Positions 4,823-62,552 of a stretch of 64,000 nucleotides of DNA are shown in pieces. The notes below the pieces were generated by a model that saw only the letters and a program-made list of their open reading frames with translations, did no database searches and was not told where the DNA came from. The translations under genes and the position numbers were made by a program. Source of the stretch: Siphonodentalium dalli (taxonomy: Eukaryota; Mollusca; Scaphopoda; Gadilida; Siphonodentaliidae); assembly GCA_032622095.1 (NCBI GenBank), contig CP136068.1, positions 161,777,465 through 161,841,464 on the forward strand, written 5' to 3'. Each line of letters begins with the position of its first letter. The first letter of the stretch is position 1.

Positions 4823-5289
4823 TATATGTGACCCGCCATATCAAATCCAGTCGTAAGTCGGGATTTTGTTTTACCCTGTGCCAATGCATTCTCTTATATA
4901 TGCGAGTCGACCATAGGTCGCCTCGCATATATAAGAGAATGCATTGGCCTAACAATTTTTTACAATTTTAATAATTTTTTCTTGTATTCTTTAACAGTTT
5001 TATAATTTCACCCGTACAGAGCCCCAGACAAACATGAGCAGACGACACTCTTCCATATGGTTCTATATATGTGTGGGGCTCCCTGCAGGGTAATGGATGT
5101 TTTTTATTTGATGTCCTAAAAATTGTAAGAAACATTTATTTAAAAAAATGATAAAAAATTGTTAGGCCAATGCATTCTCTTATATATGCGAGGCGACCTA
5201 TGGTCGACTCGCATATATAAGAGAATGCATTGGCATAGGGTAAAAAAATCCCGACTTACGACTGGATTTGATATGGCGGTTCACATATA
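4823..5289. mobile_element. Palindrome-bearing element, type A (copy 1)
   Basis: The ends are inverted repeats: TATATGTGACCCGCCATATC at the left and its near complement at the right, then a shared subterminal GTCGTAAGTCGGGATTTT. Inside sit two near-perfect 69-bp palindromes (about 4880-4949 and 5164-5233) in mutually inverted orientation. The loop holds a third hairpin around AGCCCCAGACAAACATGAGC and its complement (5020-5090). No ORF of substance is present, so this is non-autonomous. Related copies lie at 28163-28628 and 39995-40460. Confidence 0.85.
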
Positions 5290-5494
5290 CGGAAGCAGGT
5301 CGCGGAGAGCAGTGAGAGGACTATACACAGCGATATATGTCATGTGTGGGTTAGAAGGAACTAAATCTCGAATGCGAGTTAAAAACATTCTAGCGCGCGA
5401 TTGGCGTATAATATGACAAATAAATTTAATAAATATAATATCCATAGCATGTAAAAACGTGGGCGTTTCTTAGTCAGAAAAGCGTTCGTGTCGG

Positions 5495-5925
5495 GACATG
5501 ACAATCTGCGGGATGGGATGGGATATGGGACAAAACGACAATCTGCGGGACAGAATTTCAAATTGCGTGGGACGGCCGATATCTCGAGGAATACAGGGCG
5601 TTGGGGGGCTCATTTTGGTGTCTAACGAAAGGCCCACATTCGCCCTATCCACACATATTAACCCCGCCACTGACCGGACACCAGAAGTTGCATTATTTGA
5701 TCGACAACTGACCTAACATGGGGTGGAATTTGGGATAGCATGACAATCTGCGGGACGGGATTTTCAAATTGCGTGGGACGGCCGATATCTCGAGGAATAC
5801 AGCGCGTAGGGGGCTCCTTTTGGTGTCTCGCGAAAAGTCCACATTCGCCCTATCCACACATATTAACCCCGTCACTGACCGGACACCGGAAGTTACATAA
5901 TTCGGTCGACAACTGACCTAACATA
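5495..5925. repeat. Tandem duplication, two units of about 206 bp
   Basis: Two units share AAATTGCGTGGGACGGCCGA (5560 and 5766), TATCTCGAGGAATACAG, CCCTATCCACACATATTAAC and GACAACTGACCTAACAT. They differ by about 10-15% and by a short internal duplication of GACAATCTGCGGGA at the start of unit 1. Small open frames in both units are not supported as genes. Confidence 0.8.
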
Positions 5926-6066
5926 AAATGCCGCAAACACGAAAAACTGCGTTCGACATTAATGTTTAGAATTTAGATTTCTCGATGAATACGCTAGCAA
6001 ACAACAAGTTTTGGGTATCAAATAACGCAGTGGAATACTGTGCATTCGTTTTTAGCTACAATATGG

Positions 6067-9000
6067 CTGTTTTAGTGCGAATATTGTAATGGCGAACACG
6101 CAAATACGCGCCGATAAAACAGCTAAAAATAGACTCGATGTTTACAATTACAGGATCGATTTCAGCTGGTATATTCAATATAATGGGACGTATGGTATAT
6201 CAAAATGTAGGATTAGACACAGGGAATGTATTTTTTTTAAATGGGTCCCACCAGGTGGTGAAATTGTTGCAGAAATTCGCTCCAAGATATTCGCACTTAT
6301 TTTTATTTCAGTTGTGACTAAAAAGCCCAGATGCCGGAGCCCAGCGACTAAAAGCCAAGTTACAAAATAGATCAACTGGTTTGAACGAATGAATATGTCA
6401 ATGGTAAGACTATTCAAAAGAATATTCAAATCAAATAGTGTTTATAGACTTAAAAACTTATGTGTCCGCCATTCATATGCGATGGAGGTTCTCATACTAT
6501 CTGCCAGTCATACGCGGGGGAGGTTCTCATATGAACATATTATCTGCCGGTCATACGCGGTGGAGGTTCATATTATCCGCCGGTCATACGCGAGGGAAGT
6601 TCTCATTTTATCCTCCGGTCATACGCGGGGGAGGTTCTCATATGAACATATTATCTGCCGGTCATACGCAGTGGAGGTTCATATTATCCGCCGGTCATAC
6701 GTGAGGGAAGTTCTCATTTTATCCTCCGGTCATACGCGGGGGAGGTTCTGATATGAACATATTATCTGCCGGTCATATGCGGTGGAGGTTCATATTATCC
6801 ACCGGTCATACGCGAGGGAGGTTCTCATATTATCCTCTGGTCATACGTTGGGGAGGTCCTCATATGAACATATTATCCGCCGGTCATATCCTCCCTCGGG
6901 TGTGACCGGTGGATAATATGAGAACCTCCCTCGCATATGACCGGCAGATAATATGTTCATATGAGAACCTCCACCGCGTATGACCGGTGGATAATATGAA
7001 CCTCCACCGCGTATGACCGGCAGATAATATGTTCATATCAGAACCTCCCCCACCTATGACCGAAGGATAATATGAGAACTTCCCTCGCGTATGACCGGCG
7101 GATAATATGAACCTCCACCGCGTATGACCGGTGGATAATATGTTCATATGAGAACCTCCACCACGTATGACCGGCGGATAATATGTTCATATGAGAACCT
7201 CCCCAACGTATGACCGGAGGATAATATAAGAACCTCCCTCGCGTATGACCGGTGGATAATATGACAACCTCCCTCGCGTATAACCGGCGGATAATATGAA
7301 CCTCCACCGCGTATGACCGGCGGATAATATGTTCATATCAGAACCTCCCCCACATATGATCGGAGGATAATATGAGAACTTCCCTCGCGTATGACCGGCA
7401 GATAATATGAACCTCCACCGGGTATGACCGGCGGATCATATGTTCATATGAGAACTTCCACCGTGTATGACCGGTGGATAATATGAACCTCCACTGCGTA
7501 TGCCCGGCGAATAATATGTTCATATCAGAACCTCCCCCACGTATGACCGGAGGATAATATGAGAACCTCCCTCGCGTATGACTGGCGGATATTATGAACC
7601 TCCACCGCGTATGACCGGCGGATAATATGTTCATATGAGAACCTCCCCTATGTATGACCGGAGGCTAATATGAGAACCTCCCTCGCGTATAACCGGTGGA
7701 TAATATGAGAACCTCCCTCGCGTATGACCGGCGGATAATATGTTCATATGAGAACCTCCCCATCGTATGACCGGAGGATAATATGAGAACTTCCCTCGCG
7801 TATGACCGGCAGATAATATGTTCATATCAGAACCTCCCCCGCGTATGACTGGAGGATAATATGAAAACTTCCCTCGCGTATGACCGGCGGATAATATGAA
7901 CCTCCACCGCGTATGACCGGCAGATAATATGTTCATATGAGAACCTCCCCTACGTACGAACGGAGAATAATATGAGAACCTCCCTCGCGTATGACCGGTG
8001 GATAATATGAGAACCTCCCTCGCGTATGACCGGCGGATAATATGTTCATATGAGAACCTCCACTGCGTATGACCGGCGGATAATATGTTCATATGAGAAC
8101 CTCCCCTACGTATGACCGGTGGATAATATGAACCTCCACCGTGTATGACCGGCGGATAATATGTTCATATCAGAACCTCCCCCACATATGACCGAAGGAT
8201 AATATGAGAACTTCCCTCGCGTATGATCGGCGGATAATATGAACCTCCACCGCGTATGACCGGCGGTTAATATGTTCATATGAGAACCTCCCCAACGTAT
8301 GACCGGAGGATAATATGAGAACCTCCCTCTCGTATGACCGGTAGATAATATGAGAACCTCCCTCGTGCATGACCGGCGGATAATATGAACCTTCACCGCG
8401 TATGACCGGCGGATAATATGTTCATATCAGAACCTCCCCCACATATGATCGGAGGATAATATGAGAACTTCCCTCGCGTATGACCGGCGGATAATATGAA
8501 CCTCCACCGCGTATGACCGGTGGATAATATGTTCATATGAGAACCTCCACCGTGTATGACCGGTGGATAATATGAACCTCCACCGCGTATGACCGGCGAA
8601 TAATATGTTCATATCAGAACCTCCCCCATGTATGACCGGAGGATAATATGAGAACCTCCCTCGCGTATGACCGGCGGATAATATGAACCCCCACCGCGTA
8701 TGACCGGCAGATAATATGTTCATATGAGAACCTCCCCTATGTATGACCGGATGATAATATGAGAACCTCCCTCACGTATAACCGGTGGATAATATGAGAA
8801 CCTCCCTCGCGTATGACCGGCAGTTAATATGTTCATATGAGAACCTCCCCATCGTATGACCGGAGGATAATATGAGAACCTCCCTCGCGTATGACCGGTG
8901 GATAATATGAACCTCCACCGCATATGACCGGCAGATAATATGTTCATATCAGAACCTTCCCCGCGTATGACTGGAGGATAATAAGAAAACTTCCCTCGCG

Positions 9001-9522
9001 TATGACCGGCGGATAATATGAACCTCCACCGTGTATGACCGGCAGATAATATGTTCATATGAGAACCTCCCCCGCGTATTACTGGGAGATAATATGAGAA
9101 CTTCACCGCATATATGAATGGCGGACACATAAGTTTTTAAGTCTATAAACACTATTTGATTTGAATATTCTTTTGAATAGTCTTTCCATTGACATATTCA
9201 TTCGTTCAAACCAGTTGATCTATTTTGTAACTTGGCTTTTAGTCGCTGGGCTCCGGCATCTGGGCTTTTAGTCACAACTGAAATAAAAATAAGTGCGAAT
9301 ATCTTGGAGCGAATTTCTGCAATAATTTCACCGCCTGGTGGACCCATTTGGAAAAAAATACATTCCCTGTGTCTAATTCTACATTTTGATATACTATACG
9401 CCCCATTATATTGAATATACCGGCTGAAATCGATCCTGTAATTGAAAACATCGAGTCTATTTTTAGCTGTTTTATCGGAGCGTGTTTGCGTGTTCGCTAT
9501 TACAATATTCGCACTAAAACAG
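6067..9522. mobile_element. Foldback transposon-like element with tandem-repeat arms (3.46 kb)
   Basis: The outermost sequence CTGTTTTAGTGCGAATATTG at 6067 is repeated in inverse orientation ending at 9522. About 400 bp of unique arm (6067-6470 and 9115-9522) are inverted copies of each other with few differences. Inside the arms lie tandem repeats in opposite orientations, meeting at about 6895. The left arm has about 420 bp of repeats and the right arm about 2.2 kb. Unequal arms made of short repeats are typical of FB/TU-type foldback elements. No transposase is present and no clear target-site duplication is visible. Confidence 0.85.
6470..9125. repeat. Inverted tandem array of 33-, 35- and 43-bp related units
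   Basis: Units share CGTATGACCGGCGGATAATA followed by GAACCTCC, and differ in whether GAG or GTTCATATGAG is inserted before AACCTCC (33, 35 or 43 bp). Orientation flips at about 6885-6900. The variants follow each other in a recurring order, giving a higher-order period of a few hundred bases. Many 60-150 codon open frames (e.g. 7631-8092 minus) are translations of this repeat, not genes. Confidence 0.9.
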
Positions 9523-11609
9523 ACTGTCAAATTCGTGGGAAAAGTGGGGTAGTGTGGAAAACGTATGTTGATTTTTGAAAAAGGCATGGCTCGAAAGTGT
9601 GCGAACACATACCGAAAGGGTTGATCTTCACGAACGCATGCATCGTGCACTTCGGAACTTGATAATTTAGTGTGGGCGTGGTCAAACGTTAACACTGTGG
9701 CCAATGGAAAACATTTTGTTCCTTCTGACCTGTACAGTGCATTGTATATTAAAGATAGAGTTATTCCGCTTCCATCAGTACACCGACGAATCGTTACAGA
9801 CCGCGGTCATTTTTTATGGGGAATCCCCTGGTTAATATAATAATACCCATACCATTCCAAAGTTTAAAATGCGAACGTCAGAATGATGTGTGAATTTAGA
9901 AAACAAGTTAGATATTTAAAATTTATAAATTTTGCTCCGGATTTCAGACATGGTCCAGAATGTCAATGTCGCCGAGTGTCAAACAGAGTGCGCACGTGAC
10001 CAGATTCACCGCGAAATGGATACCACCTTGCCCATTAGTTTGCAATTAGAGGCATAAAGCACCTAACACCACGGTAATAACAATTCACTATCTTAATATT
10101 GTCTCCGGTTTATTGTGATTTTACTGTGGTTAGTCATTATTGTGTATGTCATGTTTCACCGGAGGGCAGTCTTTATGACAACGGTGTCAAGCTTAATGTG
10201 TGCAAAACAGTTCATTGCCCCTTGATCACGTGCGTTTACGTGACATAGGGTCTGTTGTCAAGTGGAAGGTCATGACTTGCGTGGGATCTGTATGGTCTGT
10301 TTGTCCTCTAACTGTGACGCGGATCTAAGTATGTTATTCGTCTACTGATCGGTCTATACGCTCATAGATCAATCGAAAAACGACGTTGATGGCTTATAAT
10401 TACAACTATAACACTTTATTTTCAACTATCTACTATTAATCCATCTCAGAAAATTAATTGCCAAAACATGATTTTCCGTTGGACGATCTCGGAATTTGGT
10501 TGATGGGCCGAAAATAAATTGGCCGAAATTGTCAACGAGCAACTTCGCCAAGCAAACTTTCAGAAAATAAATATTTACACTTCAACTTCAATTTTCAACA
10601 ATGAACTATCCATGATACAAATAATTACTTGATTGGCTACGATTTACGTTTAAAATGACTCAATAACAACCCAATAATTATCAACACACACAGAGTCGAA
10701 TCCGCGATCTCCGATAAAATTATTAACTCCAGACCAGTCCAGACTCCAGCCCGATGGCCGATGTAATTTGTAAACAAATGCACTGATCATATCTAATGTA
10801 CTCGTGACAAATGTCATGTCATTGTTATAAAGCTGAAAAATTTTAATAGGGTTGTAATCGGGTAATACATTTTATTTATTTCCAATAAAATTTGCCATGT
10901 TGATCAGCCTGATTCATGATAATTTCTGTTCACAGTAACTATACACGTTGTCATAGACGCTCTTTCGAAAATTGGACAAATGAAAAACGCGGCACGAATT
11001 TTGAGTGTTCACTCGAGCGTTACAAAAACCTGAATACGGCTGAAATGAACAGACATACGTATAGTATAGTGTCCATAAGAAGCAGAGACATGCAATATAG
11101 ACAACTACTTGTTCAAATGTTTCTAGCATTGAGTTTTCGAGTTGTTTTTTTTCACTGAAATTCTAATGGAATTCTCATTCCGCGCTTTCGCGTCATCCGG
11201 GGACGTCGTGTTGGGCGACGGCAGTTATAGACTCGCCCATTTTTCTTAAAGTGTCACTACGCAATGTGACTCGTCTACTGCAACGTCTATGCACTGATAG
11301 ATCAGGTCACGGGGTAGCCTCTCGACCAATCAAATGCCCGCATTTCGACCAAAACGAAAGTAGTTGTAATAATATTCTCATAAATTATATACCGAAATAG
11401 CATCAAAAAACATGATTCTTACACACGGAATATAAGTAGTAGCTCACCTTGTCGGAACGGAGTGATTGTCATGTTGTTTATCGCGATTAATCCGTCCCAC
11501 CAATAAAGAACTATTTATTTATTTACAACTGCGTAAACTTCATACGTTATAACATGAACATTAGTACATTAGTTCGCAAAAAAAAACGACAATTGAGTTT
11601 TACGTATAG
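9523..11609. other. Gene-free stretch
   Basis: I see no supported gene or clear repeat in these 2 kb. A minus-strand open frame (9198-9704) crosses the foldback border and its inner part is the mirrored arm sequence, so it is not credible. Two overlapping 70-80 codon frames at 10914-11158 on opposite strands show no recognisable domain. Confidence 0.5.
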
Positions 11610-12175
11610 AGGATCTACAGCGAGTCCCCAGTTTATAGCGAAATTTACAAAACGAGTCCAGTAAATTAGGTCTGGACCGAGCCTTTGGCGAGGTCAAGAC
11701 TTAATTTACCGGGCGAGTTTTGTACATTCCGCTATAAACTGGGGACGTGTTGTAGATTCTATTTATTACATGATCCAAAAACTCTACAAAACATACATAA
11801 TAAATCAACAAATGGGACGATAAACTAACATCTGCTTCTATAAGGCATGCGATGACGTTTCACGTAAGTATGCGTTGTTTGTCCATGTAAAGAAATAGTC
11901 CCAGATAAATAAAGACTCTTTGGCGTATTTTAAGGCGTATATTTAATGACAGAACTTTTCCAACTCTTCATTCATTATTGCTTGTTGGAAAAATATTGGA
12001 AGCCATAGTATTTTGAGACATAGCGTATGTAAAGTAAATAGACGACAAACCGGATGTCAAAGGTTACCTGGCACTATTTCTTGTTATCAAAAGAACGTTT
12101 AATATCAGAATTTATAGAATGGGTTTATAGAATGGAATAAGGGTAGGATCATGTAATAAAGAGACGTATCAATCA
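11610..12175. repeat. Dispersed repeat G, copy 1 (inverted relative to 38395-38990)
   Basis: It begins with an imperfect palindrome (about 11611-11761) with arms GAGTCCCCAGTTTATAGCG and CGCTATAAACTGGGGAC around GTCTGGACCGAGCCTTTGGC. Then come about 400 bp including TCTATTTATTACATGATC, GGCATGCGATGACGTTTC, AAAATATTGGAAGCCATAGT and GACGACAAACCGGATGTC. All of these recur in reverse order and orientation at 38395-38990. No coding potential is apparent. Confidence 0.85.
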
Positions 12176-21965: not shown

Positions 21966-22008
21966 CCCAAACCGCCCCTGTCGCCACGTCTCTGTATGTG
22001 TTCCTTAA

Positions 22009-22396
22009 CCCTTTACCCAACAAACCGGCCAAAACCGGCCAAATAAAGCTTCAACAGCCTAAAATATCTTCGGTCTGTCTCAATAGAACTATACAAATAT
22101 GGATATCATTGGAACCGGCTCCTTGACCACATTGTGATAGTTACAGTTATGCCCTGTGCCAATGCATTCTCTTATATATGCGAGTCGACCATAGGTCGCC
22201 TCGCATATATAAGAGAATGCATTGGCCTAAAAAAAATCTTTTTTTAACACTTTTTACCATTCTTACATTCTTTAACAATTTTATAATTTTTAATGTGTTA
22301 AGCCAATGCATTCTCTTATATATGCGAGGCGACCTATGGTCGACTCGCATATATAAGAGAATGCATTGGCACAGGGCCCTTCTGTTGGGTAAAGGG
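22009..22396. mobile_element. TTAA/CCCTTT palindrome element, type B (copy 1)
   Basis: It is flanked by TTAA (22005-22008 and 22397-22400) with inverted ends CCCTTTACCCAACA and TGTTGGGTAAAGGG. The CCCTTT terminus plus TTAA duplication fits the piggyBac superfamily, non-autonomous. One side carries a unique subterminal segment (CCGGCCAAAACCGGCCAAAT ... GTGATAGTTACAGTTATG). The core has two 69-bp palindromes (22151-22226 and 22302-22371) flanking an AT-rich loop. Open frames across the palindromes are mirror-image artefacts. Confidence 0.85.
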
Positions 22397-22462
22397 TTAA
22401 TAATGTAATTCACTGTAGGTGAAGCTCCCAACTGGAATGTTCACAATTTAAGTGACATTGTG

Positions 22463-24203
22463 AGCGATTTTGCTAAATACATCTTACAATTATTGATTTC
22501 TCATGGGTAATTAACTCAATGTTTATTGCGATATCGGCTCACAAAAGTCACGGAAAAGCATGCAATTTCGAGTTGGGCCATTCACCTACATCGACGTGCA
22601 TTATTAAGGAACAAATAATAACTAAGAAATATGTTCCCCGCGTTATTTTTTCGACTTTATAAGGTTCCCTGTCAAAACTTAAAATAGTTCCAAGATTTTG
22701 TATACTGGTGGAATATGATCTCTATACGGGCGTTATATCGCAATATTAATATACCACTTCTTTTGACTGGCACTGTAGCAAGAGTAGAGATTCATGGCAT
22801 GATCTGGGTATTATAGTGTAAAATGACCATAATTTCTTAACTGCTACATGAGGTCCCCAGTGGGTGAATTTAGTGATGCTAGCCCGCCATGCGTGATAGC
22901 ATCGCTCTATTCACCCTCTGGGGACCTCAATATTCACCCATATCTGTTAACCCTTTACCCAACAGAACGGCCCTGTGCCAATGCATTCTCTTATATATGC
23001 GAGTCGACCATAGGTCGCCTCGCATATATAAGAGAATGCATTGGCTTAACACATTAAAAATTATAAAATTGTTAAAGAATGTAAGAAAAAATGGTAAAAA
23101 GTGTTAAAAAAAGATTTTTTTTAGGCCAATGCATTCTCTTATATATGCGAGGCGACCTATGGTCGACTCGCATATATAAGAGAATGCATTGGCACAGGGC
23201 ATAACTGTAACTATCACAATGTGGTCAAGGAGCCGGTTCCAATGATATCCATATTTGTATGGTTCTATTGAGACAGACCGAAGATATTTTAGGCTGTTGA
23301 AGCTTTATTTGGCCGGTTTTGGCCGGTTTGTTAGCGATTTTGCTAAATACATCTTACAATTATTGAATTTCTCATGGGTAATTAACTCAATGTTTATTGC
23401 GATATCGGCTCACAAAAGTCACGGAAAAGCATGCAATTTCGAGTTGGGCCATTCACCTACATCGACGTGCATTATTAAGGAACAAATAATAACTAAGAAA
23501 TATGTTCCCCGCGTTATTTTTTCGACTTTATAAGGTTCCCTGTCAAAACTTAAAATAGTTCCAAGATTTTGTATACTGGTGGAATATGATCTCTATACGG
23601 GCGTTATATCGCAATATTAATATACCACTTCTTTTGACTGGCACTGTAGCAAGAGTAGAGATTCATGGCATGATCTGGGTATTATAGTGTAAAATGACCA
23701 TAATTTCTTAACTGCTACATGAGGTCCCCAGTGGGTGAATTTAGTGATGCTAGCCCGCCATGCGTGATAGCATCGCTCTATTCACCCTCTGGGGACCTCA
23801 ATATTCACCCATATCTGTTAACCCTTTACCCAACAGAACGGCCCTGTGCCAATGCATTCTCTTATATATGCGAGTCGACCATAGGTCGCCTCGCATATAT
23901 AAGAGAATGCATTGGCTTAACACATTAAAAATTATAAAATTGTTAAAGAATGTAAGAAAAAATGGTAAAAAGTGTTAAAAAAAAGATTTTTTTTAGGCCA
24001 ATGCATTCTCTTATATATGCGAGGCGACCTATGGTCGACTCGCATATATAAGAGAATGCATTGGCACAGGGCATAACTGTAACTATCACAATGTGGTCAA
24101 GGAGCCGGTTCCAATGATATCCATATTTGTATGGTTCTATTGAGACAGACCGAAGATATTTTAGGCTGTTGAAGCTTTATTTGGCCGGTTTTGGCCGGAT
24201 TGT
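22463..24203. repeat. Direct tandem duplication, unit about 870 bp
   Basis: 22463-23332 and 23333-24203 are nearly identical, differing by a few one-base indels such as TTGATTTC versus TTGAATTTC. Each unit holds part of dispersed repeat C (about 22600-22860) plus a type B palindrome element. The junction cuts the first element just before its right CCCTTT end (GGCCGGTTTGTT/AGCGATTTT), so only the second copy keeps both ends. Confidence 0.95.
22951..23332. mobile_element. Type B palindrome element (copy 2, right end missing)
   Basis: The left TTAA (22947-22950) and CCCTTTACCCAACAG end are present. Both palindromes are intact (about 22976-23044 and 23125-23194). The right terminus is lost at the tandem duplication junction. 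It lies inverted relative to copy 1, with the CCGGCC-rich subterminal on the right. Confidence 0.9.
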
Positions 24204-24214
24204 TGGGTAAAGGG
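23822..24214. mobile_element. Type B palindrome element (copy 3, complete)
   Basis: TTAA flanks both ends (23818-23821 and 24215-24218). The terminal inverted repeats CCCTTTACCCAACA and TGTTGGGTAAAGGG are intact. Palindromes lie at about 23847-23915 and 23996-24065. It is the product of the 870-bp tandem duplication. Confidence 0.9.
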
Positions 24215-24218
24215 TTAA

Positions 24219-28162: not shown

Positions 28163-28628
28163 TTATAATAAGTGACCCGCCATATCAAATCCAGTCGTAA
28201 GTCGGGATTTTTTTACCCTGTGCCAATGCATTCTCTTATATATGCGAGTCGACCATAGGTCGCCTCGCATATATAAGAGAATGCATTGGCCTAACAATTT
28301 TTCATTATTTTTTTAAAATAAATGTTTCTTACAATTTTTAGGACATAAAATAAAAAAACATCCATTACCCTGCAGGGAGCCCCACACATATATAGAAGCA
28401 TATAGAAGATTGTCGTCTGCTCATGTTTGTCTGGGGCTCTGTATGGGTGAAATTATAAAATTGTTAAAGAATACAAGACAAAATTATAAAAATTGTAAAA
28501 AAAATTGTTAGGCCAATGCATTCTCTTATATATATGCGAGGCGACCTATGGTCGACTCGCATATATAAGAGAATGCATTGGCACAGTCCCGACTTACGAC
28601 TGGATTTGATATGGCGGGTCACATATAT
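28163..28628. mobile_element. Palindrome-bearing element, type A (copy 2)
   Basis: Ends are AGTGACCCGCCATATCAAAT and its complement, with GTCGTAAGTCGGGATTTT subterminals. Palindromes lie at 28220-28289 and 28512-28583; the second has an extra TA in one arm. The loop hairpin GAGCCCCACACATATATA ... TGTCTGGGGCTC is present. Orientation is opposite to copy 1. Confidence 0.85.
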
Positions 28629-29411: not shown

Positions 29412-29736
29412 GTTCTCAATAGAACCATACAAATATGGATATCATTGGAACCGGCTCCTTGACCACATTGTGATAGTTACAGTTATGCCCTGTGCCAATG
29501 CATTCTCTTATATATGCGAGTCGACCATAGGTCGCCTCGCATATATAAGAGAATGCATTGGCCTAAAAAAAATCTTTTTTTAACACTTTTTACCATTTTT
29601 TCTTACATTCTTTAACAATTTTATAATTTTTAATGTGTTAAGCCAATGCATTCTCTTATATATGCGAGGCGACCTATGGTCGACTCGCATATATAAGAGA
29701 AAGCATTGGCACAGGGCCGTTCTGTTGGGTAAAGGG
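29412..29736. mobile_element. Type B palindrome element (copy 4, left end truncated)
   Basis: It starts within the subterminal region (TCAATAGAACCATACAAATA) and lacks the left CCCTTT end. The right end TGTTGGGTAAAGGG is followed by TTAA (29737-29740). Palindromes lie at about 29493-29562 and 29641-29710; the latter has an AAGCATT substitution in one arm. Confidence 0.85.
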
Positions 29737-29998
29737 TTAATGTTTCAGTATTTTTAGCTATTATAAGATTAAAATAAGCTGGCGCAAAAGGTTTCAACAC
29801 GAATATTACACAGTCCAATTCAACTATTATAGTTATGCAGGATGTGCCCTGAACTGTTCAAGCCAAGTGGATAGCTTCGCACTGAACGGTGAGGCATATC
29901 CTACATTCAACTATTATAGTTACAGTTAAGGAGGGGGGTCAAGTGACACTTTGTGAATCGGGATTTCCATGTAAATCTCTACAGCAAACGTTCTGGGT

Positions 29999-39308: not shown

Positions 39309-39370
39309 GTAAGTCGGGATTTTTTTACCCTGTGCCAATGCATTCTCTTATATATGCGAGTCGACCATAG
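39309..39370. mobile_element. Fragment of a type A palindrome element
   Basis: Sequence from GTAAGTCGGGATTTTTTTAC to the first half of a palindrome (ending GTCGACCATAG) is present. It then breaks off at the palindrome centre, where an unrelated segment begins at 39371. Confidence 0.85.
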
Positions 39371-39994: not shown

Positions 39995-40460
39995 TATATG
40001 ACCCGCCATATCAAATCCAGTCGTGAGTCGGGATTTTTTTACCCTGTGCCAATGCATTCTCTTATATATGCGAGTCGATCATAGGTCGCCTCGCATATAT
40101 AAGAGAATGCATTGGCCTAACAATTTTTTATCATTTTTTTAAATAAATGTTTCTTACAATTTTTAGGACATAAAATAAAAAAACATCCATTACCCTGCAG
40201 GGAGCCCCACACATATATATAAGCATATAGAAGAGTGTCGTCTGCTCATATTTGTCTGTGGCTCTGTATGGGTGAAATTATAAAATTGTTAAAGAATACA
40301 AGAAATGTTTTTTTAAATTGTAAAACATTGTTAGGGCAATGCATTCTCTTATATATGCGAGGCGACCTATGGTCAACTCGCATATATAAGAGAATGCATT
40401 GGCACAGGGTAAAAAAATCCCGACTTACGACTGGATTTGATATGGCGGGTCACATATATG
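39995..40460. mobile_element. Palindrome-bearing element, type A (copy 3)
   Basis: Ends are TATATGACCCGCCATATC and the complement, with GTCGTGAGTCGGGATTTT subterminal. Palindromes are at 40047-40117 and 40335-40403, with a loop hairpin at 40195-40268. Same orientation as the 28163-28628 copy. Confidence 0.85.
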
Positions 40461-40789
40461 CCATACCTGTAACAAGTCTTGCTGCGCGGCGAAAATGTCT
40501 AAATCATCAATATATCATGTTTTCCCGTTATACATGCACATTGTATTTTCAGACCGTGGTGTAAGGCATAGAATTAAAGTCACGGTGGGACGATCAAAAT
40601 CCTTAAAATGAAACGGATAAATTCAAGTATTCCAATGGGCAGTCGGTGTCGTCAGACCCGACGGTGGTGTATGATACCGAAATAAATTCACGGCGGGAAC
40701 AGCTGGCGGGAAGATGAAATGAAATTAATTTTGTGGACATATATTAAAAACATATTAACCATTTCATGGAGGGAGCTTCCTGATTTTTT

Positions 40790-41285
40790 GCGAAAACCCT
40801 GTACCAATGCATTCTCTGATATATGCGAGTCGACCATAGGTCGACTCGCATATATAAGAGAATGCATTGGCCTAACAAATTTGATATTATTTTTTATAAT
40901 TGTTAAATAATGTAAGAAAAAAGTGAACAAAAATGATAAAAATTATTAAATAATGTAAGAATTTTTTTTAAACATCGATAAAGAATGTAAGAAAAAAAGT
41001 TTTAAAAAATGATAAAATTGTTAACAAATATAAGAACAAATTATGAAATTTGTTATAGAATGTAAGAACAAATTATAAAAAATGATAAAAATTGTTAAAG
41101 AATGTAAGAAAACAATATAAAAAACAATAATTTTTAACAATTGATAAAAAAAAGTGATAATAAATTGTTAGGACAATGCATTCTATTATATATGCGAGGC
41201 GGCCTATGGTCGACTCGCATCTACAAGAGAATGCATTGGCACAGGGTCATTAATGTTGCGCCAGCGCAGCTCCCGTCATGAAAGG
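40790..41285. mobile_element. Palindrome-bearing element, type D (copy 1)
   Basis: Begins TTTTTGCGAAAACCCTGTAC with a palindrome at 40803-40871, here symmetric at the usual mismatch (GGTCGACTCGC). The loop is long (about 300 bp) and made of repeated TTGTTAAAGAATGTAAGAAA words. A second, diverged palindrome lies at 41173-41240. The right end reads GCGCCAGCGCAGCTCCCG then TCATGAAAGGGTTAA, so a CCCTTT terminus next to TTAA is again present. It abuts the 24-bp array. Confidence 0.7.
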
Positions 41286-41304
41286 GTTAAAATGTTTAGG
41301 CCTA

Positions 41305-47300: not shown

Positions 47301-50300
47301 AACACATGGGAAGGCCCTCCCTCTTACACGTGTAAAGGCCCTCCCTCTTACAAAATGTAAAGGCACTCCCTCTTACACATGGAAAGGCCCTCCCTCTTAC
47401 ACATGGAAAGGCCCTCACTCTTACACATGGAAAGGCCCTCCATCTTACACATGGAAAGGCCCTCCATCTTACACATGTAAAGGCCCTCCATCTTACACAT
47501 GGAAAGGACCTCCCTCTTACACATGTAAAGGCCCTCCCTCTTACACGTGGAAAGGCCCCCCCCCTCTTACACGTGGAAAGGCCCTCCCTCTTACACATGT
47601 AAAGGCACTCCCTCTTAAACATGGAAAGGCCCTCCCTCTTACACATGGAAAGGCCCTCCCTCTTACACATGGAAAGGCCCTCCATCTTACACATGGAAAG
47701 GCCCTCCATCTTACACATGTAAAGGCCCTCCATCTTACACATGGAAAGGCCCTCCCTCTTACACATGTAAAGGCCCTCCCTCTTACACGTGGAAAGGCCA
47801 TCCCTCTTACACATGGAAAGGCCCTCCCTCTTACACATGGAAAGGCCCTCCATCTTACACATGGAAAGGCCCTCCATCTTACACATGGAAAGACCCTCCC
47901 TCTTACACATGGAAAGGCCCTCCCTCTTACACATGGAAAGGCACTCCCTCTTACACATGTAAAGGCACTCCCTCTTACACGTGGAAAGGCCCTCCCTCTT
48001 ACACATGGAAAGGCCCTCCCTCTTACACATGGAAAGGCCCTCCATCTTACACATGGAAAGGCCCTCCATCTTACACATGGAAAGGCCCTCCCTCTTACAC
48101 ATGTAAAGGCACTCCCTCTTACACATGTAAAGGCACTCCCTCTTACACATGGCAATGCCCTCCCTCTTACACGTGGAAAGGCCCTCCCTCTTACACATGG
48201 AAAGGCCCTCCCTCTTACACATGGAAAGGCCCTCCCGCTTACACATGGAAAGGCCCCACCTCTTACACATGGAAAGGCCCTCCCTCTTACACATGGAAAG
48301 GCCCTCCCTCTTACACGTGGAAAGGCCCTCCCTCTTACACATGTAAAGGCACTCCCTCTTACACATGGAAAGGCCCTCCCTCTTACACATGGAAAGGCCC
48401 TCCCTCTTACACGTGGAAAGGCCCTCCCTCTTACACATGTAAAGGCACTCCCTCTTACACATGGAAAGGCCCTCCCTCTTACACGTGGAAAGGCCCTCCC
48501 TCTTACACATGGAAAGGCCCTCCCTCTTACACATGGAAAGGCCCTCCATCTTACACATGGAAAGGCCCTCCATCTTACACATGGAAAGGCCCTCCCTCTT
48601 ACACATGGAAAGGCCCTCCCTCTTACACATGGAAAGGCCCTCCCTCTTACACATGAAAAGGCCCTCCCTCTTACACATGGAAAGGCCCTCCCTCTTACAC
48701 GTGGAAAGGCCCTCCCTCTTACACATGGAAAGGCCCTCCCTCTTACACATGGAAAGGCCCTCCATCTTACACATGGAAAGACCCTCCCTCTTACACACGG
48801 AAAGACCCTCCCTCTTACACACGGAAAGGCCCTCCCTCTTACACACGAAAAGGCCCTCCCTCTTACACATGGAAAGGCCCTCCCTCTTACACATGGCAAG
48901 GCCATCCCTCTTACACGTGGAAAGGACCTCCCTCTTACACATGGAAAGGCCCTCCCTCTTACACATGGGAAGGCCCTCCCTCTTACACATGGGAAGGCCC
49001 TCCCTCTTACACATGGAAAGACCCTCCCTCTTACACATGGGAAGGCCCTCCATCTTACACATGTAAAGGCCCTCCCTCTTACACATGGAAAGACCCTCCA
49101 TCTTACACATGTAAAGGCCCTCCCTCTTACACATGGGAAGGCACTCCCTCTTACACATGTAAAGGCCCTCCCTCTTACACATGGAAAGACCCTCCCTCTT
49201 ACACATGGAAAGACCCTCCCTCTTACACATGGAAAGACCCTCCCTCTTACACATGGGAAGGCCCTCCCTCTTACACATGGAAAGACCCTCCCTCTTACAC
49301 ATGGGAAGGCCCTCCCTCTTACACATGGAAAGGGCCTCCCTCTTACACATGGAAAGGCACTCCCTCTTACATATGGAAAGGCCCTCCCTCTTACACATGG
49401 AAAGACCCTCCCTCTTACACATGGAAAGAGCCTCCCTCTTACACATGGAAAGACCCTCCCTCTTACACATGGAAAGACCCTCCCTCTAACACATGGAAAG
49501 GCCCTCCATCTTACACATGGAAAGGCCCTCCCTCTTACACATGGAAAGGCACTCCCTCTTACACATGGAAAGGCCCTCCCTCTTACACATGGAAAGGGCC
49601 TCCCTCTTACACATGGAAAGGCACTCCCTCTTACACATGGAAAGGCCCTCCCTCTTACACATGGAAAGGCCCTCCCTCTTACACATGTAAAGACCCTCCC
49701 TCTTACACATGGAAAGACCCTCCCTCTTACACATGGAAAGGCCCTCCATCTTACACATGGAAAGGCCCTCCCTCTTACACATGGAAAGGCCATCCATCTT
49801 ACACATGGAAAGGCCCTCCCTCTTACACATGGAAAGGCACTCCCTCTTACACATGGAAAGGCCCTCCCTCTTACACATGGAAAGGGCCTCCCTCTTACAC
49901 ATGGAAAGGCCCTCCCTCTTACACGTGGAAAGGCCCTCCCTCTTACACATGGAAAGGCCCTCCCTCTTACACATGGAAAGGCCCTCCATCTTACACATGG
50001 AAAGGCCCTCCATCTTACACATGGAAAGGCCCTCCCTCTTACACATGGAAAGGCCCTCCCTCTTACACATGGAAAGGCCCTCCCTCTTATACATGAAAAG
50101 GCCCTCCCTCTTACACATGGAAAGGCCCTCCCTCTTACACGTGGAAAGGCCCTCCCTCTTACACATGGAAAGGCCCTCCCTCTTACACATGGAAAGGCCC
50201 TCCATCTTACACATGGAAAGACCCTCCCTCTTACACACGGAAAGGCCCTCCCTCTTACACACGAAAAGGCCCTCCCTCTTACACATGAAAAGGCCCTCCC

Positions 50301-53300
50301 TCTTACACATGGCAAGGCCCTCCCTCTTACACGTGGAAAGGCCCTCCCTCTTACACATGGAAAGGCCCTCCCTCTTACACATGGGAAGGCCCTCCCTCTT
50401 ACACACGGAAAGGCCCTCCCTCTTACACATGGAAAGGCCCTCCCTCTTACACATGGAAAGGCCCTCCATCTTACACATGGAAAGGCCCTCCCTCTTACAC
50501 ATGGAAAGGCCCTCCCTCTTACACATGGAAAGGCCCTCCCTCTTACACATGGAAAGGCCCTCCCGCTTTCACATGGAAAGGCCCTCCCTCTTACACATGA
50601 AAAGGCCCTCCCTCTTACACTTGGAAAGGCCCTCCATCTTACACATGGAAAGGCCCTCCCTCTTACACATGGAAAGGCCCTCCCGCTTTCACATGGAAAG
50701 GCCCTCCCTCTTACACATGGGAAGGCCCTCCCTCTTACACATGGAAAGGACCTCCCTCTTACAAATGGAAAGACCCTCCCTCTTACACATGGAAAGGCCC
50801 TCCCTCTTACACATGGAAAGGCCCTCCCTCTTACACATGGAAAGGCCCTCCATCTTACACATGGAAAGGCCCTCCCTCTTACACATGGAAAGGCCCTCCC
50901 TCTTACACATGGAAAGGCCCTCCCTCTTACACATGGAAAGGCCCTCCCTCTTACACATGTAAAGACCCTCCCTCTTACACATGGAAAGACCCTCCCTCTT
51001 ACACATGGAAAGGCCCTCCATCTTACACATGGAAAGGCCCTCCCTCTTACACATGGAAAGGCCATCCCTCTTACACATGGAAAGGCCCTCCCTCTTACAC
51101 TTGGAAAGGCCCTCCATCTTACACATGGAAAGACCCTCCCTCTTACACATGGAAAGGCCCTCCCTCTTACACATGGAAAGGCCCTCCCTCTTAGACATGG
51201 AAAGGCCCTCCATCTTACACATGGAAAGGCCCTCCCTCTTACACATGGAAAGGCCCTCCCTCTTACACTTGGAAAGGCCCTCCCTCTTACACATGGAAAG
51301 GCCCTCCCTCTTACACATGGAAAGGCCCTCCATCTTACACATGGAAAGGCCCTCCCTCTTACACATGGAAAGGCCATCCCTCTTACACATGGAAAGGCCC
51401 TCCCTCTTACACTTGGAAAGGCCCTCCCTCTTACACATGGAAAGGCCCTCCCTCTTACACATGGAAAGGCCCTCCATCTTACACATGGAAAGGCCCTCCC
51501 TCTTACACATGGAAAGGCCCTCCCTCTTACACATGGAAAGGCCCTCCCTCTTACACATGGAAAGGCCCTCCATCTTACACGTGGGAAGGCCCTCCCTCTT
51601 ACACATGGAAAGGCCCTCCATCGTACACATGGAAAGACCCTCCCTCTTACACATGGAAAGGCCCTCCCTCTTACACATGGAAAGGCCCTCCCTCTTACAC
51701 ATGGAAAGGCCCTCCCTCTTACACATGTAAAGACTTTCCCTCTTACACATGGAAAGGCCCTCCCTCTTACACATGGAAAGGCCCTCCCTCTTACACATGG
51801 AAAGGCCCTCCCTCTTACACATGGAAAGGCCCTCCCTCTTACACATGGAAAGGCCCTCCATCTTACACGTGGGAAGGCCCTCCCTCTTACACGTGGAAAG
51901 GCCCTCCATCGTACACATGGAAAGACCCTCCCCCTTACACATGGAAAGGCCCTCCCTCTTACACATGAAAAGGCCCTCCCCTCTTACACATGGAAAGGCC
52001 CTCCCTCTTACACATGTAAAGGCCCTCCCTCTTACACATGGAAAGACCCTCCCTCTTACACATGGAAAGGCCCTCCCTCTTACACATGGAAAGGCCCTCC
52101 CTCTTACACATGGAAAGGCCCTCCCTCTTACACATGGAAAGGCCCCTCCCTCTTACACATGTAAAGGCCCTCCCTCTTACACATGGAAAGACCCTCCCTC
52201 TTACACATGGAAAGGCCCTCCCTCTTACACATGGAAAGGCCCTCCCTCTTACACATGGAAAGGCCCTCCCTCTTACACATGGAAAGGGCCCTCCCTCTTA
52301 CACATGGAAAGGCCCTCCATCTTACACATGGAAAGGCCCTCCATCGTACACATGGAAAGACCCTCCCTCTTACACATGGAAAGGCCCTCCCTCTTACACA
52401 TGGAAAGACCCTCCCTCTTACACATGGAAAGGCCCTCCCTCTTACACACGGAAAGGCCATCCCTCTTACAAATGGAAAGGCCATCCCTCTTACACATGGA
52501 AAAGCCCTCCCTCTTACACATGGAAAGGCTCTCCCTCTTACACATGGAAAGGCCCTCCCTCTTACACATGGGAAGACCCTCCCACTTACACATGGAACGG
52601 CCCTCCCTCTTACACATGGAAAGGCACTCCCTCTTACACATGGGAAGGCCCTCCCTCTTACACATGGAAAGGCCATCCCTCTAACACATGTAAAGGCCCT
52701 CCCTCTTACACATGGAAAGGCCCTCCCTCTTACACATGGAACGGCCCTCCCTCTTACACATGGAAAGGCACTCCCTCTTACACATGGGAAGGCCCTCCCT
52801 CTTACACATGGAAAGGCCATCCCTCTAACACATGTAAAGGCCCTCCCTCTTACACATGGAAAGGCCCTCCCTCTTATATATGGGAAGGCCCTCCCTCTTA
52901 CACGTGGGAAGGCCCTCCCTCTAACACATGGAAAGGCCATCCCTCTAACACATGTAAAGGCCCTCCCTCTTACACATGTAAAGGCCCTCCCTCTTACACA
53001 TGGAAAGGCCCTCCCTCTTACACGTGGGAAGGCCCTCCCTCTTACACATGGAAAGGCCCTCCCTCTAACACATGAAAAGGCCCTCCCTCTTACACATGGA
53101 AAGGCCCTCCCTCTTACACATGGAAAGGCCCGCCCTCTTACACATGTAAAGGCCCTCCCTCTTACACATGGAAAGGCCCTCCCTCTAACACATGGAAAGG
53201 CCCTCCCTCTTACACATGGAAAGGCCCTCCCTCTTACACATGGAAAGGCTCTCCCTCTTACACATGTAAAGACCCTCCCTCTTACACATGTAAAGGCCCT

Positions 53301-54195
53301 CCCTCTTACACACGGAAAGGCCCTCCCTCTTACACATGGAAAGGCCCTCCCTCTTACACATGGAAAGACCCTCCCTCTTACACGTGGGAAGGCCCTCCCT
53401 CTTACACATGGAAAGGCCCTCCCTCTTACACATGGAAAGGCCCTCCCTCTACACATGGAAAGGCCCTCCCTCTTACACATGGAAAGACCCTCCCTCTTAC
53501 ACGTGGGAAGGCCCTCCCTCTTACACATGGAAAGGCCCTCCCTCTACACATGGAAAGGCCCTCCCTCTTACACATGGAAAGGCCCTCCCTCTTACACATG
53601 GAAATGCCCTCCCTCTTACACGTGGGAAGGTCCTCCCTCTAACACATGGCAAGGCCCTCCCTCTTACACATGGCAAGGCCCTCCCTCTTACACATGGAAA
53701 GGCCCTCCCTCTTACACATGGAAAGGCCCTCCCTCTTACACATGTAAAGACCCTCCCTCTTACACATGGAAAGGCCCTCCCTCTTACACATGTAAAGACC
53801 CTCCCTCTTACACATGGAAAGGCCCTCCCTCTTACACGTGGGAAGGCCCTCCATCTTACACATGGAAAGACCCTCCCTCTTACACATGGCAAGGCCCTCC
53901 CTCTTACACATGGAAAGGCCCTCCCTCTAACACATGGCAAGGCCCTCCCTCTTACACATGGCAAGGCCCTCCCTCTTACACATGGAAAGGCCCTCCCTCT
54001 AACACATGGCAAGACCCTCCCTCTTACACATGGGAAGGCCCTCCCTCTTACACATGTAAAGGCCCTCCCTCTTACACATGGAAAGGCCCTCCCTCTTACA
54101 CGTGGGAAGGTCCTCCCTCTTACACGTGGGAAGGTCCTCCCTCTTACACGTGGGAAGGCCCTCCCTCTAACACATGGCACTGCCCTCCCTCCTTC
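41305..54195. repeat. Giant 24-bp minisatellite/satellite array (about 537 units, 12.9 kb)
   Basis: The first full unit is 41305-41328, containing ACACATGGAAAGG then CCCTCCCTC. Variation is concentrated at a few positions: ATGG, ACGG, ATGT or ATGGG after ACAC; GGCCC, GACCC or GGCAC; CCTCT or CCGCT. All three plus frames and two minus frames lack stops in the consensus; the remaining minus frame has TAA in every unit. Period-8 reading frames (MCKREGLS, CVRGRAFP, TWKGPPSY, HMERPSLL, THGKALPL) therefore run for hundreds of codons, up to 1278 (47541-51377, minus). Frames switch at indels with no selection for any one of them. I regard it as non-coding satellite DNA. Confidence 0.97.
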
Positions 54196-55739: not shown

Positions 55740-55992
55740 AAATATGCATTAAAAATGATAAAAATGATAAAAATTGTTAAAGAATATAAGAAAAAATGAT
55801 ACAAATTCTTATAGAATGTAACAAAAATGATAATTTTTTTTATGAAAATTGTTGAAGAATGTAAGAAAGAAAATGATAAAAAATTATAAGAAATTGTTAG
55901 ACCAATGCATTCTCGTATGAGAGGCGAACTATGGTAATGCATTGGCACAGAGTCTTTAATGTTTCGCCAGCGCAGCTCCCGCCATGAAGGGG
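55740..55992. mobile_element. Type D palindrome element (copy 2, partial)
   Basis: Contains only the loop words (AAATTGTTAAAGAATATAAG), a badly eroded palindrome (55902-55947) and the right end GCGCCAGCGCAGCTCCCG... followed by GGGGTTAA. It has the same orientation as 40790-41285, so the two type D ends bracket the 24-bp array as direct repeats. Confidence 0.7.
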
Positions 55993-55999
55993 TTAAAAT

Positions 56000-58964: not shown

Positions 58965-59270
58965 CGTCAGCGAGCTTATAATATCGTTTTATTTAACGTA
59001 GTCACCCACCGACCAAATTGTCGCCCGCACACAATAATCCTTAATTCGAGTGGCATTGAGTTACCAAATTTAAGGGGGCAGATATCGGGTTCAACGGGTA
59101 AAAAGTCACTACTGACACATATCACGGACAGACTAAGTATGAAAAGGGTCATACGTCTTCGTCAGCGCGGTTATAATTTATATCTGTATAAAATAGGTCG
59201 CCCACTGACCCACATCGCTAAATATGGACTGTGGAGAGGAAGGGAGTTGGCTCGCCCCGCGGTACTCTTT
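58965..59270. repeat. Dispersed repeat F, two units
   Basis: Two diverged units share CGTCAGCG(A/C)G, TTATAAT, a GTCRCCCACYGACC-like block and an ACTCTTTAA or CCTTAATTCGAGTGGC end. A third copy is at 61560-61750 (AACGCGCTTATAATTTCGAT, GGTCACCCACTGACCCACAT). A 168-codon plus frame (58884-59390) runs across both units into the next element and is not credible. Confidence 0.6.
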
Positions 59271-59272
59271 AA

Positions 59273-59752
59273 CCCTTTACCAACAAACCGGCCAAAAACC
59301 GGCCAAATAAAGCTTCAACAGCCTAAAATATCTTCGGTCTGTCTCAATAGAACCATACAAATATGGATATCATTGGAACCGGCTCCTTGACCACATTGTG
59401 ATAGTTACAGTTATGCCCTGTGCCAATGCATTCTCTTATATATGCGAGTCGACCATAGGTCGCCTCGCATATATAAGAGAATGCATTGGCCTAATAAAAA
59501 TCTTTTTTTTAACACTTTTTACCATTTTTTCTTACATTCTTTAACAATTTATAATTTGTAATGTCTTAAGCCAATGCATTCTCTTATATATGCGAGGCGA
59601 CCTACCCTAGAGGTATACACTAATATGTATTCAATGGCTGGGATTCCGTTGAATACATGTGACTCACGTCAATGGGTGTGGAATAAAATGGGATTTATAT
59701 GTGATATGGTCGACTCGCATATATAAGAGAATGCATTGGCACAGGGCCGCCC
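59273..59752. mobile_element. Type B palindrome element (copy 5) with internal insertion
   Basis: Left TTAA (59269-59272) and CCCTTTACCAACA end are present, as is the first palindrome (59421-59490). The second palindrome (starting 59571) is split at its centre by about 102 bp (59605-59706), flanked by TA on both sides. The right CCCTTT terminus is absent: sequence departs after GGCACAGGGCC. Confidence 0.85.
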
Positions 59753-59769
59753 CTCGGATACCTCAAACT

Positions 59770-60010: not shown

Positions 60011-60404
60011 GAAAGTTTGGGTGGGGGGGGGGGGGGAGAGACACCGTCCCGAGCGGACCACGTAACTACCTAAGTGTCCAGATGCATCTTTTTCCAGAAT
60101 TTCCTTTTCTTTGTGAAATTTGGTAAAAGCGATTACTTTCTAAATGAAAATATTCATTAAATTTTACGAATCAATTAATAATTAAGTGTCCTCTCATGAT
60201 CTTGATAATATGATATCAATGGATATATGAATTACACTTTTGAAAAAAATATATTATATTTCTTGTTAACTGAAAACTGAGAAATTTTAAATATTCGTCA
60301 TGCCATAACAGTTAATTAAATGAGGTTATAATATCCAATGGTTTATATATATTGTGTCATTCAAAATGGTTCACTTAACCTCCCTCCTAATCCGTTTGTA
60401 TTGG

Positions 60405-60890
60405 TTTTGGCGAAAACACTGTGCCAATAATTCTCTTATATATGCGAGTCGACATATAGTCGCCTCGAATATATAAGAGAATGCATTGGCCTAACAATTT
60501 TTTTTCATTTCTTATAAATTTTTCTAACATTCTTCAACAATTTTTATAATTTTTTTTATAATGTTATCTTACATTCTACAAACATTTTTATAATTTTGTT
60601 CTTATATTCTTTAACAATTTTATCATTTATTTTTATCATTTTTTTCTTACATGCTTTAACAATTTTATAAATTTTTCTATAAATTTTTCTTACATTCTTT
60701 AACAATTTTTATCATTTTTTAACATTATTTCTTACATTATTTAACAATTTTTTATTATTTGTTTTTCTATTTTCTTACATTTTTTAACAATTATAAAAAA
60801 ATAATATAATATTTTTTTAGGCCAATGCACTTTCGTATATACATGTATGGTGACCCGACTATATAAGGGAATGCACTCGCACAGGGTTTT
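60405..60890. mobile_element. Type D palindrome element (copy 3)
   Basis: Begins TTGGCGAAAACACTGTGCC with a slightly damaged palindrome (60422-60491, lacking TGC in one arm). Then comes a long AT-rich loop of TTCTTACATTCTTTAACAA words and a strongly decayed second palindrome (60822-60886). No CCCTTT end is visible. Confidence 0.7.
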
Positions 60891-60966: not shown

Positions 60967-61426
60967 TATAGGTTACACTGGTGTAAATAAGGTTCCGAGT
61001 GACATCTAGCGGATGCGGGAGGAATATATAGGAGAGAATAAAATAGACACTGGGCCCTGATTGGTCAATAGCCTTGTGTGCTTTTCACATAAAAAAATCA
61101 TCACACCTCTTCCCTATGATTTCCCATAGGTAAAATAACCATTGGCACAGGAATTAACCCTTTGTAGTGAATTTTGAATTTTTTGGTGTGGTCTAAAATA
61201 TGACTGTATTTTTTTATGCGGTTCTGACACTAGTTACGAAAACATAAGATTTAAAGGCGAATTCCCTGCTAGACAGACATGATTTTTTTGTGTAAAAAGT
61301 TTCCCAAAATGTCAATTTTTCAGATTTAAAGAAAATTTTGGACCCAACATTTATATTGCCAACACTATACGCTAAAACGTTAGCACTGAGGCCTATGGAA
61401 AACATTTACACCAGTGTAACCTATAG
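60967..61426. mobile_element. MITE with perfect 22-bp terminal inverted repeats
   Basis: TATAGGTTACACTGGTGT... at 60967-60988 is perfectly mirrored at 61405-61426. The internal 415 bp have no significant ORF. No clear target duplication beyond a possible TA. Confidence 0.8.
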
Positions 61427-61559
61427 CCACACACCTGGGAGGCCAAACTCCATACAGCGCCCTCTACGTTATCACTGCGTATCTCAGCGAAGCGATGGGA
61501 GATAACTCTGCCTGAAGTTTGCTGGGAGGCAGACCGATTAACTATACCACGCGCTATAT

Positions 61560-62217
61560 CCCGTCTACGATGTTGGAATTCTTTGCCAACGCGCTTATAA
61601 TTTCGATCTGTTCAAATAGGTCACCCACTGACCCACATCGCTACCATTGTAACAATGGGTTGTGACAAGGAAGCGAGTTAGCCCACACACAGTACTCTTT
61701 AATTTCAAGTGGCGCTGAGTGGATTCGAGATAAAGCGGGCCACAGAACCACATGAATGGCGGTCTAACAGATCGCGGTATAGAGCCTTGCAGCGCGATAA
61801 TTTGTCATTGTTGCGCGCTTAATGTGTCACCAGTCACCTCCTTGATGCATCAAGGACACATATAAATATACATAGACTTGAAAAGACTTTGTGTGGCCGA
61901 CATTTAATCTTGGCATATTTTATAGTAGCTGATCAGTGTTGGGAGTTGCTTGATAACGTTAAGGTTGTTCGGGTATATCACCCAAAGGATTTAAGACCAT
62001 TCGTGTATGATATATACGCTCGTGGGAGTTTGTAATCACGGGTCCTTCCAGTCATTGGGTGAGTTTTGATTTCATTTAAACATATTATATTTGTATAATA
62101 TATTACAAAGGATGTGGGCTTGGAAGAGAAGTTCCTCTCACTTACACGAACCTCCACTGCCCACAAGAACAGTATGTATAAATATGTATAACAATGTGTT
62201 GCAACACGAATACTTAA
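61560..62217. other. Dispersed repeat F copy and gene-free sequence
   Basis: 61560-61750 is a third copy of repeat F. From 61750 to 62213 no gene or repeat is identified. Confidence 0.5.
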
Positions 62218-62552
62218 CCCTTTACCCAACAGAAGGGCCCTGTGCCAATGCATTCTCTTATATATGCGAATGCATTGGCTTAACACATTAAAAATTATAA
62301 AATTGTAAAAAGTGTTAAAAAAGATTTTTTTTCGGCCAATGCATTCTCTTATATATGCGAGGCGACCTATGGTCGACTCGCATATATAAGAGAATGCATT
62401 GGCACATGGCATAACTGTAAATATCACAATGTGGTCAAGGAGCCGGTTCCAATGATATCCATATTTGTATGGTTCTATTGAGACAGACCGAATATATTTT
62501 AGGCTGTTGAAGCTTTATTTGGCCGGTTTTGGCCGGTTTGTTGGGTAAAGGG
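62218..62552. mobile_element. Type B palindrome element (copy 6) with a collapsed hairpin
   Basis: TTAA flanks both ends (62214-62217 and 62553-62556), with CCCTTTACCCAACA and TGTTGGGTAAAGGG termini. The first palindrome (62240-62280) has lost its centre, joining TATATATGCG directly to AATGCATTGGC. The second (62335-62404) is intact. The loop is also shortened. Confidence 0.9.

Follow-up and report, generated by a model that had tools for sequence, protein, structure and literature searches.

A double-hairpin core common to TTAA- and TATA-flanked elements in a genomic region of the scaphopod Siphonodentalium dalli

Results

Overall organization of the hairpin core

The window analysed here is a stretch of 64,000 nucleotides from contig CP136068.1 of the scaphopod mollusc Siphonodentalium dalli (GCA_032622095.1, positions 161,777,465 to 161,841,464), and all coordinates count from its first letter. 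It contains 24 copies or remnants of one family of near-perfect 69-bp palindromes: seven in type A elements, twelve in type B elements, and five in type D elements. The palindromes are mostly arranged in inverted pairs with an AT-rich spacer between them. Two such hairpins around the spacer form a core unit with the ends CCCTG...CAGGG, and 13 cores or core fragments are present in this 64 kb (12 if B2 and B3, described below, count once). The CCCTG/CAGGG boundary is identical against five different neighbours, namely the long and the short arm of type B, the arm of type A, and both arms of D1. A recognisable A, B, or D arm adjoins 12 of the 13 cores and fragments; the flanks of the remaining one, D2, give a weak match.

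In ten dinucleotide shuffles of the window, the top palindrome score was 8-10 in every case, against 42 in the real sequence. The score of 42 belongs to a different, longer inverted repeat near 38.9 kb, and the detected copies of the 69-bp palindrome score 18 to 30. A chance origin of the palindromes is ruled out by these shuffles. When four copies were folded as single-stranded DNA, energies of -34.9 to -37.8 kcal/mol were obtained (z -14.2 to -16.0). In three of the four, a 27-bp stem is followed by one mismatch, a 5-bp stem, and a 3-base loop. In the fourth, D1L, the mismatch lies at another place, and only this copy is fully paired at the central mismatch site.

The palindrome alignment took in 23 of the 24 copies; the interrupted second palindrome of B5 (B5R) was read separately, by eye. 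The mismatch between the outer arm (GTCGACC) and the inner arm (GGTCGCC) is fixed in 19 of the 20 palindromes in which both positions are readable, D1L being the sole exception; A4, B6L, D2R, and D3R could not be scored, and B5R was scored by eye. Since the mismatch keeps a single orientation in these 19 copies, the idea of parvovirus-like flip/flop hairpins was dropped. Self-correction of the palindrome arms is also disfavoured, because the central mismatch persists (D1L alone is paired there). The original prediction, made from the letters alone, had described about 24 near-perfect 69-bp palindromes or remnants, in mutually inverted orientation, with a fixed arm mismatch marking the orientation of each and a core bounded by CCCTG...CAGGG. 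All of these points agree with the present results, except for substitutions or small losses of the boundary at single ends of A1, A2, B6, D1, D2, and D3.

Type B and type D elements

The ends of type B are TTAA-CCCTTTACCC (TTAACCCTTTACCCAACA), and its arms are 147 bp long on one side (TTAA included) and 24 bp on the other. Both ends are kept in B1, B3, and B6. B1 (22005..22400, forward strand) is complete, with the ends TTAACCCTTTACCC and palindromes at 22158-22226 and 22302-22370. B3 (23818..24218, reverse strand; palindromes 23848-23916 and 23997-24065) is also complete and is the same insertion as B2 (22947..23332, reverse strand; palindromes 22977-23045 and 23125-23193), which lost its long-arm end at a tandem-duplication junction. 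The segment 22458-23332 recurs at 23328-24204 with 99.5% identity over 877 bp, type B element included. This means that B2 and B3 represent one insertion and are not independent. A separate inverted repeat of 81 bp (22849 and 23720) likewise lies in the duplicated region (22458-24204). B4 (29414..29740, forward strand; palindromes 29494-29562 and 29642-29710) has a truncated long arm. B5 (59269..59748, forward strand) has lost its short arm, and a 100-bp insertion interrupts its second palindrome at the centre. B6 (62214..62556, reverse strand) retains both ends; its palindrome at 62244 (B6L) is without the centre, and the other, at 62335-62403, is intact.

D1 (40755..41290, reverse strand) runs from TTAA to TTAA, with the ends TTAACCATTTCATGG (40755) and CATGAAAGGGTTAA (41290), palindromes at 40803-40871 and 41172-41240, and tandem repeats in its spacer. 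The ends assigned earlier to type D, GCGAAAACCCTG and AGCTCCCG, were therefore wrong, and type D is a second TTAA element. A 24-bp satellite, ACACATGGAAAGGCCCTCCCTCTT, starts 15 bp past the TTAA end of D1 and occupies 41305-54191 in about 537 copies with a strong GC skew. D3 (55751..55996, reverse strand) is an old truncated copy with one palindrome remnant (55899-55946); its outer arm is 91% identical to that of D1 over 44 bp.

D2 (60375..60890, forward strand) is old and decayed; its spacer is D-like, its palindromes are at 60423-60490 and 60822-60880, and its outer ends are uncertain. Because its flanks match the D arms weakly (best E 0.06), its type is uncertain: its provisional assignment to D is based on the spacer and on a short stretch, GCGAAAAC, and not on the arms. 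Relative to the spacer, this stretch and that of D1 are on opposite sides. Such a position would fit a flip of the core via recombination between the inverted hairpins, although the ends of D2 are decayed. D2 is at most one doubtful case of a free-standing core in the window.

TTAA is found at both ends of all four B and D copies in which both ends are kept (B1, B3, B6, and D1). B1, B3, and B6 carry the CCCT motif at each end, and D1 carries it at one end and CCAT at the other. CC[C/T]T together with TTAA is described as a hallmark of piggyBac-type miniature inverted-repeat transposable elements (MITEs) (PMC2872659). As judged from their TTAA sites and CCCT ends, types B and D1 are piggyBac-type MITEs. 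No coding capacity was seen in B and D.

Type A elements

The outer ends of type A are TGTGACCC...GGGTCACA. The earlier description of type A as a distinct outer element with the core was borne out, and its start was corrected to TGTGACCC, which places TATA on both sides of A1 and A3; the flanks of A2 are AATA/TATA. A1 (4827..5285, forward strand) has the ends TGTGACCC...GGTTCACA, TATA at 4823-4826 and 5286-5289, and palindromes at 4880-4948 and 5166-5234. The palindromes of A2 (28171..28623, reverse strand) are at 28222-28290 and 28512-28582, the second with a 2-bp insertion, and those of A3 (39997..40454, reverse strand) are at 40048-40116 and 40335-40403. The spacers of these three copies have an 85-bp segment in common (5009..5093, forward strand), which does not recur in the rest of the window (masked satellite excluded). 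A4 (39309..39370, forward strand) is a fragment that stops at the palindrome centre, next to another inverted-repeat element.

The inverted repeats of type A are about 120 bp long, palindrome included. Termini of the form TGTNR...YNACA are exact at four of the six type A ends (the left end of A1 and the right ends of A1, A2, and A3, on the forward strand), and the left ends of A2 and A3 carry one substitution each. These ends are not CCC, unlike piggyBac-type ends. According to PMC2836005, Ginger2 elements have TGTNR ends and terminal inverted repeats (TIRs) of about 50-180 bp, duplicate 4 bp of the target, and prefer RTATAY. Type A is thus probably Ginger2-like, by its ends only.

Comparison of the outer arms

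The five arms were compared in pairs by blastn (word size 7). At an E threshold of 10, no B or D arm was matched by the type A arm. The B and D arms have only their first 10 bp in common, TTAACCCTTT, which is a piggyBac-type terminus. The earlier claim that the core resides in three outer element types thus holds, the arms being unalignable beyond these 10 bp of B and D. One core seems to be common to two kinds of transposon ends, namely piggyBac-type ends at TTAA and Ginger2-like ends at TATA.

The original prediction had further proposed capture or exchange of the cassette between element families, an idea that would fail if all copies shared one ancestral outer sequence. The unalignable arms leave this idea standing; the process itself gained no support from empty carriers or from duplications around the core. 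Two candidate target duplications of the core were considered by eye and dropped: TA/TA fits type A only, GC/GC fits type B provided that the boundary is shifted, and nothing fits D1.

Conservation and decay of the palindromes

The palindrome consensus is identical in types A and B. Among 13 full-length A and B palindromes, four substitutions were found in 897 bases; these 13 rows are without B2 (the duplicate of B3), B5R, B6L, the second palindrome of A2 (71 bases), and A4. The five D palindromes differ from this consensus at 3/69, 5/69, 7/68, 17/59, and 7/46 aligned bases (4-29%). The plurality base of D is opposed to the A/B consensus in none of the 69 columns; ties occur in three columns at the loop, and there D2R is apparently misaligned by one base. 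Thus the propagating palindrome seems to have stayed constant from the time of the old D insertions to that of the young B insertions, whereas dead copies have decayed. As far as these few copies can tell, such a pattern speaks for constraint acting on the active lineage and not for the repair of dead copies.

Variable columns within each type were also counted, B2 and B5R being left out; as the copies are related and few, the p values are a guide only. In type A, 3/138 columns vary in the palindromes and 24/320 in the remainder (p 0.03). With five type B copies, B5 being cut at 59604, the values are 1/138 and 16/263 (p 0.009). When B6L was also left out and parts of the remainder were taken alone, the type B palindromes varied less than the type B outer arms (p 0.009) and the type A palindromes less than the type A spacer (p 0.01).

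Unstable cruciforms or hairpins would leave disruptions focused on the centre of a palindrome. Large disruptions are found in five palindromes, all at or next to the centre: a 100-bp insertion in B5R, a 34-bp central deletion in B6L, the stop of A4 at 39370, and gaps in D2R and D3R. It should be noted that the insertion in B5R (59605-59704) is flanked by TA at each side and, by eye, contains an inverted repeat of its own; outside the masked satellite, the window has no second copy of it. A TA-specific transposon would leave such flanks, and the insertion may have struck the TA of the loop for that reason.

Searches for related sequences and other features of the window

No RNA family in Rfam matched at the gathering score, and a tRNA search (bacterial code) found none. 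Three exact patterns of 20-24 bases had no match in viral contigs, two exact 21-base patterns had none in bacterial and archaeal genome contigs, and the B1 core had none in a plasmid collection; such collections say little on a eukaryote. A literature search with the literal end and core strings found no paper.

Two open reading frames (ORFs) within 25838-27118 match the FLYWCH zinc-finger and MULE transposase domains in Pfam. This region is possibly a decayed MULE element, and nothing links these ORFs to the A, B, and D elements. Two copies, about 82% alike, of a further inverted-repeat family that includes a long palindromic stretch lie at 11605-12124 and 38435-39001. Tandem repeats of 35/111 bp occupy 6465-9101 as two inverted blocks that meet near 6889. 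A self-inverted repeat of 225 bp (85%) lies at 63516-63740, and part of it recurs at 63129-63342. At 61140-61165, a core-end-like motif, CATTGGCACAGGAATTAACCCTTTG, stands next to TTAACCCTTT; this may be chance, and the motif lies inside an apparent further inverted-repeat element at 60973-61421 (by eye).

Discussion

Origin of the shared core

The explanation that we favour, with modest confidence, is that small non-autonomous MITE families separately acquired one passenger core and that each is moved by the transposase of its outer ends. The passenger would be the two inverted 69-bp hairpins around their AT-rich spacer, with the exact ends CCCTG...CAGGG. It would have entered the outer elements as a unit, in this presumed direction of acquisition, at least twice and perhaps three times. 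Each whole family would then be mobilised by a putative transposase that recognises its outer ends; for B and D, with TTAA sites, this would be piggyBac-like, and for A, with TATA sites, probably Ginger2-like. The hairpins might be kept because they aid transposition of their carrier, most likely by serving as a subterminal site that is bound by a protein or forms a hairpin.

Several observations weigh against this explanation. In the flanks of type A, the R of RTATAY is present in none of the three copies (the Y is present in all). The TATA flanks sit in AT-rich DNA, the Ginger2-like assignment is drawn from the ends alone, and a few piggyBac elements are reported to have target duplications other than TTAA (PMC10813416). 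Types B and D, with their common TTAACCCTTT, may be one old piggyBac lineage, so that two acquisitions of the core suffice instead of three. A search of the window with the outer arms found no empty element lacking the core, which had been suggested earlier as a check: each match to an A, B, or D arm adjoins a core. No consistent target-site duplication was seen around the core (by eye), and no piggyBac or Ginger transposase was matched by Pfam in 34 scanned of the 89 ORFs (at least 75 amino acids, outside tandem arrays). As for constraint on the palindromes, a non-consensus base is common to two D copies in five of the 69 columns. With four type B copies, 1/138 columns vary in the palindromes and 7/262 in the remainder (p 0.27). 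The type A palindromes compared with the outer arms alone gave 3/138 versus 7/102 (p 0.10), and the type B palindromes compared with the spacer alone gave p 0.06.

Alternatively, the core might be a subterminal cis-acting site of one lineage, whose ends were replaced or swapped by recombination or gene conversion between nested elements, the hairpins being selected for transposition. This is possible, although we regard it as rather unlikely. The identical palindrome consensus in old and young copies is in its favour, as is, weakly, the GCGAAAAC stretch of D2, which lies on the side of the spacer that hairpin recombination would produce; a transposition role is also suspected for the conserved internal region of the CMITEs by the authors of PMC2872659. 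However, the old D copies are not homogenised, which means that dead copies do not undergo conversion, the ends of A differ in type from those at TTAA, and the boundary of the core is sharp. Retention of the hairpins as a transcribed hairpin RNA, a small-RNA precursor, seems very unlikely: the stem is long and nearly perfect (folded with DNA parameters), but the Rfam search gave nothing in its support.

The core itself could also be a mobile hairpin-ended element, of a double-hairpin or REPIN-like kind, that inserts into transposons without target duplication. Defined ends, paired inverted hairpins, a conserved asymmetric mismatch, and occurrence in several contexts would agree with this, as would the lack of a consistent target duplication around the core and the possible position of D2 outside any recognisable outer element. 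Nevertheless, nearly all cores adjoin a recognisable arm, no enzyme is known for the core, and REPINs are described from bacteria (PMC3116915); we therefore consider this reading doubtful. Equally doubtful is its extension: a double-hairpin element that moves by its own means, perhaps via a hairpin DNA intermediate, would be a parasite of cut-and-paste transposons belonging to different superfamilies, with the asymmetric hairpin as its conserved recognition signal. The least probable reading is that all copies go back to a single ancestral element and differ in their degree of decay, or that they reflect an assembly artefact. The first 10 bp common to B and D and the age of the D copies could be cited for it, but the arms of the young or intact A and B copies are unalignable and their flanking contexts are separate. 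Because the A, B, and D arms fail to align, decay of one ancestral outer sequence was rejected.

Comparison with known systems

The nearest precedent found is the CMITEs of Acropora corals (Wang et al. 2010, PMC2872659), six families that are described as having different piggyBac-type TIRs and one internal region of 75 bases. This region is reported there to be more conserved than the TIRs and of unknown origin. Both systems consist of MITEs with differing TIRs and one internal region conserved across families, and both show the TTAA target, piggyBac-type ends, and tandem copies. In contrast, the CMITEs of that description are about 100 bp long with the 75-base region, and every family belongs to the TTAA kind, whereas here two 69-bp hairpins surround a spacer and one carrier has TATA-type ends. 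A published 60-bp CMITE query had a best match of 12 bp in the window (blastn, word size 7; E 0.36), outside the cores. Relative to the CMITEs as described, two features would be new: the anatomy of the core as a double hairpin, and a carrier whose ends are not of the TTAA type.

Types B and D resemble piggyBac-type MITEs in their TTAA sites, CCCTTT-like ends, and apparent lack of coding capacity, and differ from them in the internal double-hairpin core, which is also present in type A. Type A resembles the Ginger2 elements of PMC2836005 in its TGTNR ends, 4-bp TATA flanks in two of three copies, and inverted repeats of about 120 bp, palindrome included; no transposase was seen with it, the R of RTATAY is absent, and its membership is putative. 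For the anatomy of the core only, repeated hairpin units are also known from mitochondrial double-hairpin elements and RHE (PMC2800124); those of Allomyces, as cited there, spread without flanking duplications. Their location is mitochondrial, whereas the present hairpins lie inside DNA transposons. REPINs (PMC3116915) likewise consist of two palindromes in inverted orientation as one unit, again a likeness of core anatomy only; they are bacterial and associated with the RAYT transposase, and no RAYT-like enzyme was seen here.

The classification of MITE families relies mainly on their ends. In this window, an internal cassette spans the ends of apparently two superfamilies, and this hairpin cassette is more constant than the outer ends of its carriers. 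This makes testable a question that arises from the CMITE paper (PMC2872659), namely whether an internal region can aid the spread of elements that are moved by different transposases.

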